Of a stretch of DNA of 5,605 nucleotides, positions 2-5,605 are shown in pieces; the first letter of the stretch is position 1; every line of letters begins with the position of its first letter. Location of the stretch: assembly GCA_020061125.1 (NCBI GenBank), contig JAGUYV010000319.1:1-5605 (forward strand). The letters are read 5' to 3'. The notes under the pieces are model-generated. The model made no database searches. It had not been told where the DNA came from and saw only the letters and a program-made list of their open reading frames with translations. Both the position numbers and the translations under genes were made by a program. Origin of the DNA: a bacterium. GTDB lineage: Bacteria > UBP15 > UBA6099 > DSWB01.

Positions 2-382
2 TCCACCCCGTCGTGCATGGGTATCGCCGTGGACTACGACTACGGCGGCGCGCCCGTGGCGCACGCGCGCGGCGGCTGGATCGCACAGCGCAACTATCCC
101 TTCCACATGGCGTACCGCGCGGTGTTCGAGAGCGCGGTCGTGGAATTCGATTCGCGCAACACGCCCGCGGTCCGGTTCACCTGGCCGCGCGGAAAGCCGC
201 CCGCGCCCTTTATCCAGAAGACCGACGGCTACCGCCTCCAGGCAAAACACTTCGCCGAGTGCGTGGCCAATAAAAAACAACCCGAAACGGCAACCGCACA
301 GGACGCGCGCGCGTCCCTGGCTCTGGCGCTCGCCGCGCGCGAGTCCGCGCGCACCGGACGCCCCGTGGAATTCGGCGCATGA
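2..382 (+). CDS. Gfo/Idh/MocA-family oxidoreductase, C-terminal fragment
   Basis: The reading frame is open from the window edge (first full codon at base 2) to a TGA at 380-382, giving the last 126 residues of a protein whose NAD(P)-binding N-terminal half lies outside the window. What is visible fits the C-terminal alpha/beta substrate domain of Gfo/Idh/MocA dehydrogenases. A beta-sheet stretch runs from about SCMGIAVDYDYGG through FESAVVEFD. It is followed by the typical tail, DGYRLQAKHFAECVANKK, then a helix rich in Ala and Arg (ASLALALAARESARTGRPVEF) that resembles the family's closing 'A...A..S...G..V' segment. These enzymes oxidise or reduce sugars, inositols and related polyols with NAD(P). 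The substrate cannot be told here. The aminotransferase start lies 60 bases downstream on the same strand, so the two are probably co-transcribed and may act in sequence, ketone formation then amination. The family call rests on the C-terminal pattern only, without the Rossmann motif or the EKP motif. An internal ATG at 17 is not the true start because the frame and fold continue upstream of it. Confidence 0.68.
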   Translation, partial: STPSCMGIAVDYDYGGAPVAHARGGWIAQRNYPFHMAYRAVFESAVVEFDSRNTPAVRFTWPRGKPPAPFIQKTDGYRLQAKHFAECVANKKQPETATAQDARASLALALAARESARTGRPVEFGA

Positions 383-432
383 ACCCGGGGGGAAATCTCC
401 CGCCCCTTTCCGCATCATCACTCGATTCCCTT

Positions 433-437
433 GGAGG
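433..437 (+). promoter_or_regulatory. Shine-Dalgarno that sets the aminotransferase start
   Basis: A consensus GGAGG ends five bases before the ATG at 443. It overlaps a possible in-frame TTG at 431, which would add four residues but would have no ribosome binding site of its own. The ATG at 443 is therefore the preferred start. Confidence 0.75.
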
Positions 438-442
438 AATGG

Positions 443-1717
443 ATGTCAAAAAAAGACAAAAAGCAAAAGGCCGGTGAGGAGAAACCCATTAGCGTGAAGT
501 CCGGGGATCTGGCGCTGTACGGCGGCGTCCCCGTTCGCAGAGACATGCCCGAGCAGCGCGTAGTCACGGGCGAGGACGAAATCAAGCAGGTGGTGCGCGT
601 GGTGCGCAGCGGGCGCCTCACCTCCCTGTCGCACGGCGTTGTCGAGAAATTCGAGAAGAAGTTCGCGGCCTGGTGCGGAGCCAAGTATGCGGTGGCCGTG
701 AACTCGGGCACGGCCGCGCTGCATGTGGCTCTGGCCGCGCTGGACATCGGCCCGGGCGACGAGGTCATCGTGCCCCCGTACACCTTCATCGCCACGGCTT
801 CTGCCGTGATTCAGCAGAACGCGGTTCCGGTGTTCGCGGACATTGATCCCGCCACCCTCAACATCAGCCCCCAGGCCGTGGCCGCGAAAATCACCCCGCG
901 CACAAAAGCCGTCGTTCCGGTGCATTTGTTCGGCCTGCCCGCGGACATGGCTGCAATCAACGAAGTTGCCGGAAAGCATGGAATCCCTGTGATCGAGGAT
1001 GCGTGTCAGGCGCACGGAGCGGCGTACCATGGCGACCGCGCGGGCGCTCTGGGGCGCATGGCCTGCTTCAGCTTTCAGGAATCCAAGAATATGGCCGCGG
1101 GCGAAGGCGGCATGATCACCACAAACGACAAGCAGCTCGCGCGCCAGTGCCGCATCATCCGCCACATCGGCATGGCCGCGAAATACGAATATGTCACGCT
1201 CGGCTACAACTACCGCATGCCCGCCTTGAGCGCGGCCGTGGGCCTGGCCCAGTTGAAAAAGCTCAAGGCCTTCAACAGGCACCGCGCCGCACTGGCCGAG
1301 TTCTACGCAAAAAAACTCGCGGACCTGCCCGTGACGCTGTATCCCGCGCCCGAGGGCGTCACATCAGCCAACCACCTGTTCCCGGTCACCTTCCCCCGCG
1401 AACTCGTGCCTGACCGGGAATTCATGCTCCTTCTGGTGCGCGCGCTGCACGCGGAAAACGCGCCCGTGTGGTGGGTGTATCCCGCGCCTTTGAACCAGGT
1501 GCAGTTCATACGCGAGCAGACCGCATACGCGCGGCAGTGCCCGTTCGCCTGCCCCCTGCGCGAGGAGCCCGCGGCGTACGATGCGCACGAATGCCCCGCG
1601 GCCGAAGACATCGCGGGACGCACCCTCGTGCTGCCCACGGCGCCGTGCTATCCCCTGTCCGTGGCCAGGGACACCGTGGCGGCCCTGCGCAAAGTCACGG
1701 CGTATTTCAGCGGATGA
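443..1717 (+). CDS. DegT/DnrJ/EryC1/StrS family PLP-dependent aminotransferase
   Basis: This is a complete 424-residue fold-type I aminotransferase of the sugar/cyclitol class, which transfers an amino group (normally from Glu or Gln) to a keto-sugar or ketocyclitol in the cytoplasm. The motifs are in order: LALYGGVPVR (23-32), the N-terminal signature seen in the AHBA-synthase/StsC-like branch; NSGTAALHVAL (87-97), the PLP-phosphate loop; PPYTFIATA (111-119); IEDACQAHG (184-192), with Asp186 to hold the pyridine nitrogen and Gln189; SFQESKNMAAGEGG (210-223), with Lys215 as the Schiff-base lysine; and GYNYRMPALSAAVGLAQL (254-271). Lys rather than His at the Schiff-base position argues for an aminotransferase, not a ColD-type dehydratase. 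Residues 1-22 form a charged, Lys/Glu-rich extension ahead of the core. The C-terminal part, with WWVYP (343-347) and CPAAED (384-389), is of family type but does not reveal the substrate. The gene follows the oxidoreductase by 60 bases, consistent with one operon. Length is slightly above the usual 370-400 because of the N-terminal extension. The family is secure; the specific product is unknown. Confidence 0.93.
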   Translation: MSKKDKKQKAGEEKPISVKSGDLALYGGVPVRRDMPEQRVVTGEDEIKQVVRVVRSGRLTSLSHGVVEKFEKKFAAWCGAKYAVAVNSGTAALHVALAALDIGPGDEVIVPPYTFIATASAVIQQNAVPVFADIDPATLNISPQAVAAKITPRTKAVVPVHLFGLPADMAAINEVAGKHGIPVIEDACQAHGAAYHGDRAGALGRMACFSFQESKNMAAGEGGMITTNDKQLARQCRIIRHIGMAAKYEYVTLGYNYRMPALSAAVGLAQLKKLKAFNRHRAALAEFYAKKLADLPVTLYPAPEGVTSANHLFPVTFPRELVPDREFMLLLVRALHAENAPVWWVYPAPLNQVQFIREQTAYARQCPFACPLREEPAAYDAHECPAAEDIAGRTLVLPTAPCYPLSVARDTVAALRKVTAYFSG

Positions 1718-1815: not shown

Positions 1816-2907
1816 ATGAAAAGACAAACAGCAACAGTGCTCGCCATCCTCGCTCTCGCCGCAGCCCTCACCACCCTGTGCGCCACGGCCGCGCGCGCGC
1901 AGTGGGCGCCGCCCCCGCCGGAAAAACGCCAGCCCCTCGATGTCGCCGCGGTCATGATCTACGCGGCGCACGAAAACGACCGACCTACACTCATCGCCTG
2001 CGTGGACCAGGACAGCTTCTACAGGGAATACCTCGCACGCGCCAGAGACAAAAACCCGATGACCGAAACTGAATTCCGGGCCGGGCTGATCTTCGCGCTG
2101 ACAAATTCCTCGTCGGACAAGCTCGACCAGGCGCTCAAAGGCCTCGAGGGGCGCGACAAATACCGCTTCATCATGATGTTCCTCAAATCGTATTCCGAAG
2201 TGAAAATCGAAGGGGACACGCGCCGCATGATCGTGCGGGCCGAAGACGAACAGGGCCGCCAGCCGGAGATTTTTCTGCGGCGCGATAACGGCGTGTGGCG
2301 CGTAGTCTGGGTCGAGCCGTTCGACCGCCTGCGCGAATTCTTCGGCCAGCAGCCCGCGGAGGACACCTCACAGCAATCCCCGGCCGGAGCCGAAAAGCAA
2401 ACCCCGGCCGAGCCGGAAACGCCCCCCGTGCCCGCCCTGGACCTGCCCCCGGCCAAACGCTCGCCCGCACAGGCGCTCGCCGTGCTCATCATCGGCGCGG
2501 ACCGCAAGGACTGGGATCTGGCGACGACCGCTTTCGACATTGCCGGCATGCGAAACATGCTGGTGCGCGACATGCCCGCGCTGGACTTTCTGCCCACGGA
2601 AAAAATCCGGGAAATCTTCTCGAAAATCCTTGCGCGCGGCGGCCAGAAAATCAGCGCGTTCCTGCCCTCGGAACTCAACCGGCTCAACGCCGCGGAAAAA
2701 GCGGAAATGGTGGAACTCATGGTGCGCGCCCTGTCCACCACCGTGATTTCCGGGACCTCGGCGCGCATCACCGTGCGCCACCCCGACGACGAGTCCAAAT
2801 CCTGGGAATACAAAATGAACAAAACCGCGGACGGGTGGAAGATTGATGTGTTGAGCGTGTTCGACAATCTTCTCGAACAGTTTACCGGGCAACTGAACCG
2901 CAAATGA
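1816..2907 (+). CDS. Secreted protein of unknown function with two tandem copies of one domain
   Basis: I do not recognise this 363-residue protein. It begins with a clear Sec signal peptide: basic MKRQ, a hydrophobic stretch through about residue 24, and probable cleavage after Ala28 (motif ARA, before QW). Cys22 is not in a lipobox because Leu precedes it, so a periplasmic or secreted soluble protein is more likely than a lipoprotein. After a short Pro-rich piece come domain 1 (about 41-178), a low-complexity Pro/Ala/Glu/Gln linker (179-215) and domain 2 (about 216-360). The two domains align with each other without gaps over 114-176 and 294-356. Shared residues include G133/G313, R140-like basic positions, W161/W341 and the FD pair at 169-170/349-350. 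The N-terminal parts also align (45-64 with 222-241). The strand-rich end, with 'G-W' followed by hydrophobic residues, recalls NTF2-like or DUF4878-type small exported domains, but that is only a resemblance. The ATG at 1816 gives a well-formed signal peptide and has GGGGA seven bases upstream. An ATG at 1811 is closed at once by TGA. No catalytic motif is visible. Confidence 0.82.
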   Translation: MKRQTATVLAILALAAALTTLCATAARAQWAPPPPEKRQPLDVAAVMIYAAHENDRPTLIACVDQDSFYREYLARARDKNPMTETEFRAGLIFALTNSSSDKLDQALKGLEGRDKYRFIMMFLKSYSEVKIEGDTRRMIVRAEDEQGRQPEIFLRRDNGVWRVVWVEPFDRLREFFGQQPAEDTSQQSPAGAEKQTPAEPETPPVPALDLPPAKRSPAQALAVLIIGADRKDWDLATTAFDIAGMRNMLVRDMPALDFLPTEKIREIFSKILARGGQKISAFLPSELNRLNAAEKAEMVELMVRALSTTVISGTSARITVRHPDDESKSWEYKMNKTADGWKIDVLSVFDNLLEQFTGQLNRK

Positions 2908-2944: not shown

Positions 2945-2970
2945 AACGCCCCGCCTTATGGCGGGGCGTT
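2945..2970. terminator. Bidirectional hairpin terminator between convergent genes
   Basis: An exact 11-bp stem (AACGCCCCGCC pairing with GGCGGGGCGTT) closes a TTAT loop, in the 88-base gap between the stop of the exported-protein gene (2907) and the stop of purH (2996). Reading +, the stem is followed by GTGTTGTGCGTTGG. Reading -, it is followed by TGCGTTTCGTC. Both are moderately T-rich but lack a long U run. Position and symmetry suggest it ends transcripts from both sides. Confidence 0.8.
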
Positions 2971-2995: not shown

Positions 2996-4561
2996 TCAGT
3001 GCTTGAAATGGCGCATGCCCGTGAGGCCCAGGGCGATGTTGTGCTCGTCGCAGGCCATGCCGATTTCATCGTCGCGCAGCGCTCCGCCCGGCTGGATGAT
3101 GGCGGTGATGCCGTAGCGCGAGGCCTCGTCAATGATGTTGCGCATGGGAATGAATGTGTCGAACGCCATGACGCAGCCCACGGATTCGTCGCCCGCTTTC
3201 TCGAACGCGATGCGCATGGCGTCCATGCGGTTGATCTGGTTCGCGCCCGTGCCGATGGTCTGCAGATCCTTAGCCAGCACCACGGCGTTGGAGCCGACAT
3301 GCTTGACCACTTTCCAGGCGAGGATCAGGTCCGCGAGCTGCTTGCGGGTGGGTTTGCGTTTTGACAAAACTTTCAAGTGCGCGCCCTCGGGCAGGAGCAG
3401 GTCGTCGTTTTCCTGAACCAGCACGCCGCCGAGCACGCTGCGCAGATTGAGCGTGCCCGCCTGCTTGGTCCACTTTTTGCCCACGATCTGCAGCACGCGC
3501 ATGTTGGCGGCCTTCTTTGCGGAGCGCAGCAATTCGAGCGCGCCCTCGGTGTAGCGGGATGCGATGATGGCTTCGTTGTAGGTGGCGGTGATTTCCTTGG
3601 CCGCGCGTTTTTCCACCTGTCCGTTGAAGGCCACGACCGCACCCACGGCGCTGGCCGGCTCCACATCGCGCGCCTTGAGATACGCTTTGACCAGGTCCTT
3701 TTCCAGAGCCACGCCCAGGGGCACGCCCTGCTTGACCACGGCCACCGCGGGCTTGTCGAACTCCATGACGATTTCCAGGGCCAGGTTGAGGTCATAGGCC
3801 ATGTTGTAGGGGATGGAGCCGCCCTTGTGCATCTCGGCCTCGGCCAGTGACACGCCGTACAGGTCCGGCTCGCGGAAGAACGCGGCGCGCTGGTGCGGGT
3901 TCTCCCCGTAGCGCAGTTCCATGGCCTTGCTGTATTTCAGGAACAGGGTCCTCGGCAGGAATTCGTCACGGCGCAATTCCTTGTTCATGTTGTTGTAGAT
4001 GTCCATGTCGTAGGAGGCGCTCAACTCGAACGCGCGCACCGCGAGCCTGCGGCAGAAGTCCACGGACGGCTTGCCTTCGGTTTTGGTGAATTCGTCCATG
4101 AATTCCGCGTACTGGGCCGGATTGGTGAGCACGGCCACATCCCGGAAATTGCGCGCCGCCGCCCGGATGATGGAAAGAGTGGCCACATCCGCGGCGGACA
4201 CCGAGTCGTCAATACTACCGCCGGTTTCGGTGACCGCGTCGAACGGCGCGGGGTTGGCGATCACCAGGTCTATGTGCTGGCCGCCGATGTTCTTGAGTTG
4301 TTCGGTGTGGGAGTTCTCGCGGCGAAGGGCCATCACGCCCCCGAAAATGATCGGGTGCATGGCTTCGATGCTCCCGTCCAGGGTCTCGCCGTGGCCGGTG
4401 ACCGTGGCCAGATCCTGGGCTTTGACACCGTTCTTGTCCAGCATCTTGCAGGTGGGCGTGGACGCGATAATCTCCACACCCTTTTTAGACAGGAATGCGG
4501 CCAGATCCACGAGGTTGGTTTTGTCGTGCACGCTGATCAGGGCCGTGGCGATTTTTTTCAT
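2996..4561 (-). CDS. purH: PurH-family protein (AICAR transformylase/IMP cyclohydrolase) with altered active sites
   Basis: The protein has 521 residues, the usual PurH length, and is intact. PurH catalyses the last two steps of de novo IMP synthesis in the cytosol: formyl transfer from 10-formyl-THF to AICAR, then ring closure of FAICAR. The N-terminal MGS-like cyclohydrolase domain (about 1-200) opens with ALISVHDKTNLVDLA (7-21). The transformylase domain (about 205-521) has LRYGENPHQ (216-224), SNAVVLAKD (424-432), QTIGTGANQINRMDA (434-448), IIQPGGALRDDE (488-499) and the C-terminal TGMRHFKH (514-521). Many hallmark residues differ. The STGGT loop reads STPT, one residue shorter (34-37). 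LDGRVKTLHP reads LDGSIEAMHP (61-70). NLYPF reads NPAPF (103-107). DIGGP reads DVATL (125-129). Lys137 is Arg. In the transformylase, VKHANPCG reads VKQGVPLG (276-283), so the catalytic His is Gln278, and SAFGG reads SAVGA (304-308). Asp468 and Asn425 remain. Start: the ATG overlaps the upstream phosphatase stop (ATGA), with GGAGG 7 bases before it. Family membership is secure. Whether both activities survive is doubtful. Confidence 0.87.
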   Translation of the reverse strand: MKKIATALISVHDKTNLVDLAAFLSKKGVEIIASTPTCKMLDKNGVKAQDLATVTGHGETLDGSIEAMHPIIFGGVMALRRENSHTEQLKNIGGQHIDLVIANPAPFDAVTETGGSIDDSVSAADVATLSIIRAAARNFRDVAVLTNPAQYAEFMDEFTKTEGKPSVDFCRRLAVRAFELSASYDMDIYNNMNKELRRDEFLPRTLFLKYSKAMELRYGENPHQRAAFFREPDLYGVSLAEAEMHKGGSIPYNMAYDLNLALEIVMEFDKPAVAVVKQGVPLGVALEKDLVKAYLKARDVEPASAVGAVVAFNGQVEKRAAKEITATYNEAIIASRYTEGALELLRSAKKAANMRVLQIVGKKWTKQAGTLNLRSVLGGVLVQENDDLLLPEGAHLKVLSKRKPTRKQLADLILAWKVVKHVGSNAVVLAKDLQTIGTGANQINRMDAMRIAFEKAGDESVGCVMAFDTFIPMRNIIDEASRYGITAIIQPGGALRDDEIGMACDEHNIALGLTGMRHFKH

Positions 4562-5184
4562 TCCTTCGCCTCCTTTGTTTGGGCGCGCTCCATTGCGTTG
4601 GAGCGAAGCCGTTCCACGGCGGCTTGATCAAGCGCCATGGTTATATGCCGACCGTTCACGAGCTTGTCCCGCCACATGTCGGACAGGGGCCTGTCCTCGA
4701 GAATGCAGCGGGCCACCTGCGACACCACCTGGTGGGTCACGAAGGCGATCCTGCCCGAGTCGCGGTTGTAAACATCCCAGAGGCCCGCGGCCACGCGGAC
4801 CCTCACCTGCTCCAGTGTTTCTCCGTCCGGAAACGAAACCGCGTGCGGTTCCGAATGCCATTTGTCAAACAGGCCCGGAAACGCCCGGTCCGCTTCGGCG
4901 CGGTCCATGCCTTCCACGGCGCCGTGGTTCACTTCCAGGAGCCACTCCTGCACCACGGGTTCGATGCCCAGGGCCGCGGCGATGGCGTCTGCGCTCTGCC
5001 GCGCGCGCTTGAGCGGGCTGACGAAGATTTTGTTAATTTTCAGTTCCGCGAGCCGCGCGGCGGTTTCCTGCGCCTGGGCCAGCCCGGTTTCGTTCAGCTC
5101 GATGTCAATCCGGCCCTGGCACCGTAGCTCACGGTTCATGCGCGTTTCGCCGTGCCTGACGAATATGAATTGTTCCGCGGGCAT
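4558..5184 (-). CDS. Histidine phosphatase superfamily protein (phosphoglycerate-mutase-like)
   Basis: This 208-residue cytosolic protein has the full catalytic set of the branch 1 histidine phosphatases. It has FVRHGETRMN (8-17), with His11 as the residue that becomes phosphorylated; SPLKRARQSA (56-65), with the phosphate-binding Arg60; LLEVNHGAVEG (82-92), with Glu84 as the likely acid/base; and VTHQ (149-152), with His151 as the second histidine. The GRIDIELNETGLAQA segment (24-38) and PDGETLEQVRVRV (119-131) are also standard. The length of about 200 suits small-molecule phosphatases (CobC, PspA and GpmB types) rather than the roughly 230-250 residues of true cofactor-dependent mutases. 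The family hydrolyses varied phosphate esters, and the substrate cannot be read from sequence. It lies between purM and purH, 22 bases after the purM stop and overlapping the purH start by 4 bases, so a role linked to purine or ribotide metabolism is plausible but unproven. The start at 5184 has a GGGAAGGGG purine tract just upstream. A longer frame back to 5307 would overlap purM and encode an unlikely Arg/Pro-rich leader. The last ten residues (AMERAQTKEAKE region) form a charged tail. Confidence 0.9.
   Translation of the reverse strand: MPAEQFIFVRHGETRMNRELRCQGRIDIELNETGLAQAQETAARLAELKINKIFVSPLKRARQSADAIAAALGIEPVVQEWLLEVNHGAVEGMDRAEADRAFPGLFDKWHSEPHAVSFPDGETLEQVRVRVAAGLWDVYNRDSGRIAFVTHQVVSQVARCILEDRPLSDMWRDKLVNGRHITMALDQAAVERLRSNAMERAQTKEAKE
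4569..4573 (-). promoter_or_regulatory. Shine-Dalgarno of purH inside the phosphatase gene
   Basis: GGAGG on the - strand, within AAAGGAGGCGAAGGA, lies 7 bases before the purH ATG and inside the last codons of the phosphatase gene. Together with the ATGA stop-start overlap (4558-4561), it implies that purH is translated by re-initiation or coupling with the upstream gene. Confidence 0.7.
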
Positions 5185-5206
5185 GTAGCCCCTTCCCTGT
5201 CCGGCG

Positions 5207-5605
5207 TCAGCCTGTAACGGTTGCGATGCGATAGGCGGGCAGCCCGGTGAGGTCCTGCGCCGCGTCCTGCACGGCCCGCGCCTGTTCCGCGGACACGATG
5301 ACCGCAAGGCCTACGCCCAGGTTGAACACGCGCCGCATTTCCTCTTCCTCGATACCGCCGGCGTTTTGAATCACATCGAATATTTTGTGGCGGGGCCACG
5401 CGGCCCAGTCAATGTCCAGTCCCGCGCCGCCGGGCAGAACGCGCACGATGTTGCCTTCGAGTCCGCCGCCGGTGATGTGCGCAAGGGCGCGCACTTCAAA
5501 TTCCCCGATCAGCGCCAGGGCCTGCTTGGCGTAAATGCGCGTGGGTTCGAGCAGGGCGCGGCCCAGGGCGGCGCCGAGTTCCGGGACATGCTGCGCCCAG
5601 TCCAG
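5207..5605 (-). CDS. purM: Phosphoribosylformylglycinamidine cyclo-ligase (AIR synthetase), C-terminal part
   Basis: The frame enters at the right edge and stops with TGA at 5207-5209, giving the last 132 of roughly 340 residues. PurM closes the imidazole ring of FGAM using ATP to make AIR, the fifth step of de novo purine synthesis. The visible part is the C-terminal domain, with its signatures in order: LLEPTRIYAKQALAL, then VRALAHITGGGLEGN and VRVLPGGAG, then W--(R)HKIFDVIQNAGG, IEEEEMRRVFNLGVGL and a final segment ending YRIATVTG. These match the family closely, including the ITGGG loop and the FN-GVG motif. The ATP-binding N-terminal half is outside the window. It is the first visible gene of the - strand run and is followed after 22 bases by the phosphatase gene and then purH. 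The operon promoter, and any purine-responsive control, must therefore lie beyond the window. A GTG at 5494 is internal to the gene and not a start. Confidence 0.95.
   Translation of the reverse strand: MDWAQHVPELGAALGRALLEPTRIYAKQALALIGEFEVRALAHITGGGLEGNIVRVLPGGAGLDIDWAAWPRHKIFDVIQNAGGIEEEEMRRVFNLGVGLAVIVSAEQARAVQDAAQDLTGLPAYRIATVTG

Follow-up and report, generated by a model that had tools for sequence, protein, structure and literature searches.

The locus and its gene neighbourhood

The stretch of DNA analysed here (5,605 nucleotides; hereafter the window) is one whole contig, G000:C155, of a metagenome-type assembly of 4.12 Mb in 513 contigs that is 79% complete. Its features are listed in Table 1. 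The gene under study, which we call purH', encodes a divergent paralogue of PurH. It is preceded by a histidine phosphatase gene whose TGA stop codon overlaps the ATG of purH' (ATGA), with an AAGGAGG-like ribosome site, and the two genes are likely to be translationally coupled. Upstream of the phosphatase gene lies purM, which is cut by the contig end in the window; in relatives it is full-length and opens a conserved purM-histidine phosphatase-purH' cluster. This order is found in five genomes from three families (that of the window, G001, G002, G004 and G005). G006 has purM together with the beginning of purH' on a single contig; the G003 contig stops just upstream of purH'. Further upstream of the cluster, relatives carry an M23 peptidase gene and a GuaB3-type IMP-dehydrogenase-related gene; where the latter was located (L035:8420-9592, minus strand), the peptidase gene lies between it and the purM cluster.

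The best model for the histidine phosphatase is alpha-ribazole phosphatase (cobC), with a score below its cut-off. In the window and in L033, L035, L039 and L041, the phosphatase gene invariably sits between purM and the paralogue, and its substrate might connect to the paralogue's role. The sugar aminotransferase gene and the partial oxidoreductase gene at the other end of the window lie outside the purM cluster and are not found near purH' in relatives. The 363-residue protein had no Pfam or NCBIfam match. Terminator-like sites in the region are no more numerous than in shuffled sequences and, apart from one tRNA, no Rfam RNA, including the ZTP riboswitch, was detected near either purH gene of the genome.

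Table 1. Features of the window and the second purH gene of the same genome
Feature	Position	Strand	Details
Gfo/Idh/MocA oxidoreductase, end part	2-382		followed by aminotransferase gene
DegT/DnrJ/EryC1 sugar aminotransferase	431-1717	+	
363-aa protein	1816-2907	+	signal-like N-terminus; Pro-rich linker between two halves that look alike
Stem-loop with T-rich tail, possible terminator (weak)	2952-2968	+	between convergent genes
purH', divergent PurH paralogue, both catalytic sites degenerate	2996-4561	-	521 aa; open frame and translation, Pfam, motif table
C-terminal AICAR-transformylase domain (PurH1), residues 194-521	2996-3982	-	alignment, motif table, column counts
N-terminal IMP-cyclohydrolase domain (MGS-like, PurH2), residues 1-193	3983-4561 (about 3980-4561)	-	alignment, motif table, fold in model
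Histidine phosphatase (branch 1, cobC-like)	4558-5187	-	gene upstream of purH'; PF00300, 161.5 bits
purM (AIR synthase), C-terminal part	5207-5605	-	truncated by contig end; PF02769, 73.5 bits; TIGR00878
Long PurH, 592 aa	L002:623-2401 (contig C120 of the window's genome)	+	hallmark residues of both halves intact

An unbroken reading frame with a predicted PurH fold

The purH' frame runs through 521 codons with no stop or frameshift and aligns to its orthologues almost without gaps, in agreement with an earlier note on this DNA that had described the cyclohydrolase domain as full-length and in frame. Coding periodicity is kept (GC3 0.83-0.87) and equals that of the neighbouring genes. Both Pfam families score above their cut-offs (PF01808, AICARFT_IMPCHas, 302.9 bits; PF02142, MGS, 47.8 bits). 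Among the NCBIfam models, the protein passes PRK00881 for bifunctional PurH (505 bits, cut-off 402) and misses TIGR00355 (461 bits, cut-off 528). The nearest solved structures are M. tuberculosis PurH 3zzm (E 7e-93) and 4a1o, together with 4ehi. The earlier note had also proposed a structure model. AlphaFold2 returned one with a mean pLDDT of 90.7 from an alignment of 31 sequences, whose canonical homologues themselves favour an intact-fold outcome, and Foldseek superimposed it on chain B of 4a1o with a TM score of 0.94 and an rmsd of 2.0 Å. The two-domain PurH2-PurH1 architecture is predicted to be kept.

Residue losses in the cyclohydrolase half

As references we used E. coli PurH (NC_000913) and 126 PurHs from other phyla. 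An ungapped alignment with the E. coli protein shows that the cyclohydrolase motifs of purH' are replaced throughout: STGGT is ASTPT, DGRVKTLHP is DGSIEAMHP, NLYPF is NPAPF, DIGGP is DVATL and AAKN is AARN. In human numbering, Arg64 has become Ser, Lys66 Glu, Tyr104 Ala (residue 105 of purH'), the Gly-Gly pair Ala127-Thr128 and Lys137 Arg. The replacements given in the earlier note (Ser64, Glu66, Ala105, Ala-Thr 127-128 and Arg for Lys137) are thus placed correctly. Its statement that only the Asp survives also holds, as Asp125 is the sole one of Arg64, Lys66, Tyr104, Asp125 and Lys137 that purH' keeps. Its reading of STGGT was right that the motif is altered; the residue it took to be missing was an alignment slip.

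At the same positions, the Arg occurs in 125 of the 126 PurHs of other phyla; the Lys, Tyr, Asp, the Gly pair and the second Lys are present without exception (126 of 126). According to a 2011 survey (PMC3261824), Lys66, Tyr104, Asp125 and Lys137 are fully conserved in every one of the fourteen archaea that possess a PurH2 domain. We further defined near-invariant columns as those with an identity of 95% or more across the 127 canonical sequences, which gave 41 columns in the cyclohydrolase half and 65 in the transformylase half. purH' has lost 19 of the 41 cyclohydrolase columns, whereas no canonical PurH sampled has lost more than 4. The residue losses of purH' exceed chance. With its hallmarks gone and its fold kept in the model, the PurH2 domain is probably catalytically inactive and retained for structure, as the earlier note had proposed.

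A second damaged site in the transformylase half

The transformylase half is also affected, which the earlier note had not mentioned. In purH', KHxNPCG has become KQGVPLG, SYNN has become PYNM, GAGQ has become GANQ and ASDAFFPF has become AFDTFIPM. The individual replacements are His278 to Gln, Asn280 to Val, Asn254 to Met, Phe306 to Val, Gly441 to Asn and Ser467 to Phe, and the orthologues are intact at these positions. KHxNPCG contains Lys266-His267 in human numbering; the catalytic His is gone from purH', and KHGNP is present in the orthologues. Over the near-invariant transformylase columns, purH' has lost 19 of 65, against 9-13 of 65 in the orthologues outside the window. Taken together, the motifs of both halves suggest that purH' has, in the window lineage, probably become a double pseudoenzyme.

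A PurH with intact motifs accompanies the paralogue

The earlier note had suggested looking in the source genome for a second purH, for purO or for a stand-alone cyclohydrolase. A second purH was found: a 592-residue protein, here called the long PurH, which is intact in its motifs (STGGT, DGRMKT, NLYPF, DIGGP, AAKN, KHSNPCG, DPVSAFG, ASDAFFPFR and RDD) and 35% identical to purH'. Both genes are present in all seven genomes analysed from the phylum, which span one class, one order, three families and four genera; one PurH of the two is truncated by contig ends in G005 and G006. MAG contamination as the source of the two copies is excluded by this distribution. Near-invariant columns lost in the long PurH number 6-7 of 41 in the cyclohydrolase half and 8-9 of 65 in the transformylase half. 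Its best PDB match is 9ou7, a 50S-dimer structure that contains M. acetivorans PurH. The long PurH and its orthologues (L002:623-2401; L034, L036, L038, L040, L044) share two insertions, at about residues 395-420 and 490-535, and read RYAENWHQ where RYGENPHQ is expected.

In none of the seven genomes did we find PurO (PF07826; the controls M. jannaschii and H. volcanii were matched), formate-dependent PurP (PF06849; controls matched) or a stand-alone PurH2/PurJ, sought as an MGS domain (PF02142) on a small separate protein. Besides the two PurHs, the MGS matches in the seven genomes are frames of 602-1205 residues, judged CarB-like by length alone. Two such CarB-length frames apparently occur in several genomes of the phylum (G005:C170, G003:C24, G002:C68, G000:C363).

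The best reading of these motifs is that the long PurH closes FAICAR to IMP, and very probably it also formylates AICAR. The earlier note was therefore right that a separate FAICAR-closing enzyme is needed, but the PurO- or PurJ-like protein that it envisaged is replaced by a motif-intact second PurH in seven of seven genomes.

Conservation and history of the two PurHs

The two proteins differ in how they are conserved. Identity to the window protein is 46-53% for the purH' orthologues, and long PurHs are about 65-70% identical across genera within their own group. Split by domain across families and genera, the paralogues are 32-45% identical in the cyclohydrolase half and 52-73% in the transformylase half; the corresponding values for the long PurH are 66-72% and 62-66%. 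The paralogues have lost 17-25 of the 41 near-invariant cyclohydrolase columns, and the pocket residues lost vary by lineage. In G001 the Arg and Lys remain, with the Asp and the second Lys gone; the Asp remains in the window, and Lys66 in G005. Few paralogue-specific residues in this domain are common to the paralogues. This pattern suggests a pocket freed from catalytic duty rather than the formation of one shared new pocket. A conserved new ligand pocket was not seen, the lost residues being different among lineages, which argues against one conserved site for the other ligand that the earlier note had offered as its alternative. All six orthologues outside the window lineage keep their transformylase motifs.

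dN/dS was measured for the paralogues of genus g3 (three species), the window lineage having no close relative among the seven genomes. There it amounts to 0.008-0.036 in the cyclohydrolase half and 0-0.022 in the transformylase half, with similar values for the long PurH. Ratios of about 0-0.04 in both domains show that the paralogue is not junk in this genus, and the strong conservation of a motif-less N-terminal domain fits a structural or binding role.

In the trees, each PurH gene forms its own clade (SH-aLRT 100). The end branch of purH' measures 0.65, compared with 0.97 for G001, whose transformylase motifs remain. On the full-length tree, the AU test rejected a single exclusive clade of both PurHs (p 0.023) but not a wider clade that takes in the long form's closest relatives as well (p 0.375). 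On the transformylase-only tree the exclusive clade was not rejected (p 0.48). A recent duplication within the phylum is disfavoured by the full-length tree, which separates the two PurH clades, but is compatible with the transformylase-only AU test. The two PurHs may stem from an old duplication or from the gain of a foreign PurH.

A scan of a genome contig collection with the window protein alone found no relatives; with the paralogue alignment it returned ordinary PurHs only, at 36-42%. In the literature searched, no paper described a bacterial PurH that is duplicated or inactive, and nothing turned up on ForH.

A proposed division of labour and stepwise loss of function

We favour, with a probability of about 0.6, a reading in which the long PurH closes FAICAR and purH' served as a transformylase with a structural N-terminus, before becoming, in the window lineage, a double pseudoenzyme that acts as a non-catalytic partner or regulator. 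The distribution of the two PurHs throughout the phylum indicates that both were probably present in the phylum ancestor. The cyclohydrolase task would then have passed to the long form, and the operon copy would have lost its pocket while keeping transformylase activity. The fold of its N-terminal domain is predicted to have been kept, and the domain probably serves the dimer as a structural element. Where the transformylase motifs are intact, as in six of the seven genomes, purH' probably remains an AICAR transformylase. The window lineage also lost the residues of the transformylase site and presumably the function with them, and its purH' may have been retained as a non-catalytic partner or regulator. 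Speculatively, purH' might pair with the intact PurH in a mixed dimer. Such a dimer is conceivable because the transformylase site is made from both subunits: in human ATIC it is located where the two subunits meet, AICAR being bound mainly by one and folate by the other, and only the dimer is active (PMC8780674).

A related proposal goes further and takes purH' to be a dedicated PurH pseudoenzyme. Here, both sites would be dead, and the protein, encoded with purM, would be a regulatory or structural subunit, either tuning the intact PurH in a mixed dimer or sensing nucleotides; it would have evolved stepwise within the phylum via a monofunctional transformylase intermediate that survives in sister families. 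We regard this as a tentative possibility.

It is somewhat more doubtful that the paralogue acquired a new function, with one or both emptied pockets binding another nucleotide or a protein so that it acts as a sensor, regulator or moonlighting factor. The strong purifying selection that genus g3 shows on an N-terminal domain without its motifs, the conserved operon and the loss of both sites in the window lineage would all be in line with this. There is also a precedent in M. acetivorans, where PurH, its two active sites empty, acts together with aEF2 in a complex that dimerises 50S subunits (PMC12605026). However, the lineage-specific pocket losses and the scarcity of common paralogue-specific residues leave no conserved new pocket visible, and the transformylase motifs remain intact in six of the seven genomes.

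It is unlikely that the cyclohydrolase half of purH' has retained activity by means of a non-canonical site. The reaction is chemically undemanding and depends for the most part on backbone contacts (PMC6797443, PMC3261824), PurH2 being said to act mainly by orienting FAICAR in this way (PMC6797443), so that weak activity without the hallmark side chains is conceivable in a fold predicted to be kept. Yet Lys66, Tyr104, Asp125 and Lys137 are reported to be fully conserved in archaeal PurH2 and are invariant in the 126 PurHs of other phyla, the backbone elements GG and STGGT are altered too, and a motif-intact PurH is always co-present, which makes such activity unnecessary.

Equally improbable is that the window-lineage purH', redundant beside the long PurH, is simply decaying to a pseudogene. 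No other paralogue has lost the transformylase motif in addition to the cyclohydrolase one, and the other six genomes include no close relative of the window species, which would leave room for slow decay. Its unbroken and near gap-free frame, its neighbour-like coding periodicity, an end branch shorter than that of G001 and the retained ribosome site and ATGA coupling all speak against it.

Comparison with known systems and implications

The overall organisation of purH' is that of the bifunctional PurH/ATIC proteins of M. tuberculosis (3zzm/4a1o), E. coli and human, with two full-length domains, the same fold and a pur gene neighbourhood. purH' differs in having lost the catalytic and binding residues of the cyclohydrolase half, in the window those of the transformylase half as well, and in coexisting with a second, intact PurH. 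The division proposed for most of the phylum, with the two activities on separate proteins, is reminiscent of split PurH systems such as the halobacterial PurN-PurH1 fusion with PurO, or the PurH2-only Archaeoglobus protein AF1811. In this phylum, by comparison, the presumably inactive domain has been retained instead of being deleted, and its companion is another complete PurH in place of PurO.

A second copy of a pur enzyme without catalytic residues is also known from Methanocorpusculum labreanum, where Mlab_0150 is a PurF copy with Ser in place of the active-site Cys (PMC3261824). However, Mlab_0150 was judged a relatively recent purF duplication in a single species, and purH' is phylum-wide, operonic and, in one genus, under strong selection. 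The PurH of the 50S-dimerising MRDF complex of M. acetivorans (PMC12605026, PDB 9ou7) demonstrates that a PurH protein can take on a structural role outside catalysis. Unlike purH', it was annotated as a normal bifunctional enzyme.

Annotation pipelines would label purH' as bifunctional PurH, the PRK00881 cut-off being passed, and this label is likely wrong. Residues considered alone would imply that FAICAR closure is missing or carried out by an unfamiliar enzyme, which is likely wrong as well. On the combined sequence evidence, purH' is a probable case of a divergent paralogue that has lost both activities beside an intact enzyme. The phylum would thus hold a stepwise series, from the intact long PurH through a paralogue with a dead cyclohydrolase and intact transformylase motifs to a paralogue with both sites damaged, which would make the origin of a pseudoenzyme in metabolism directly testable.
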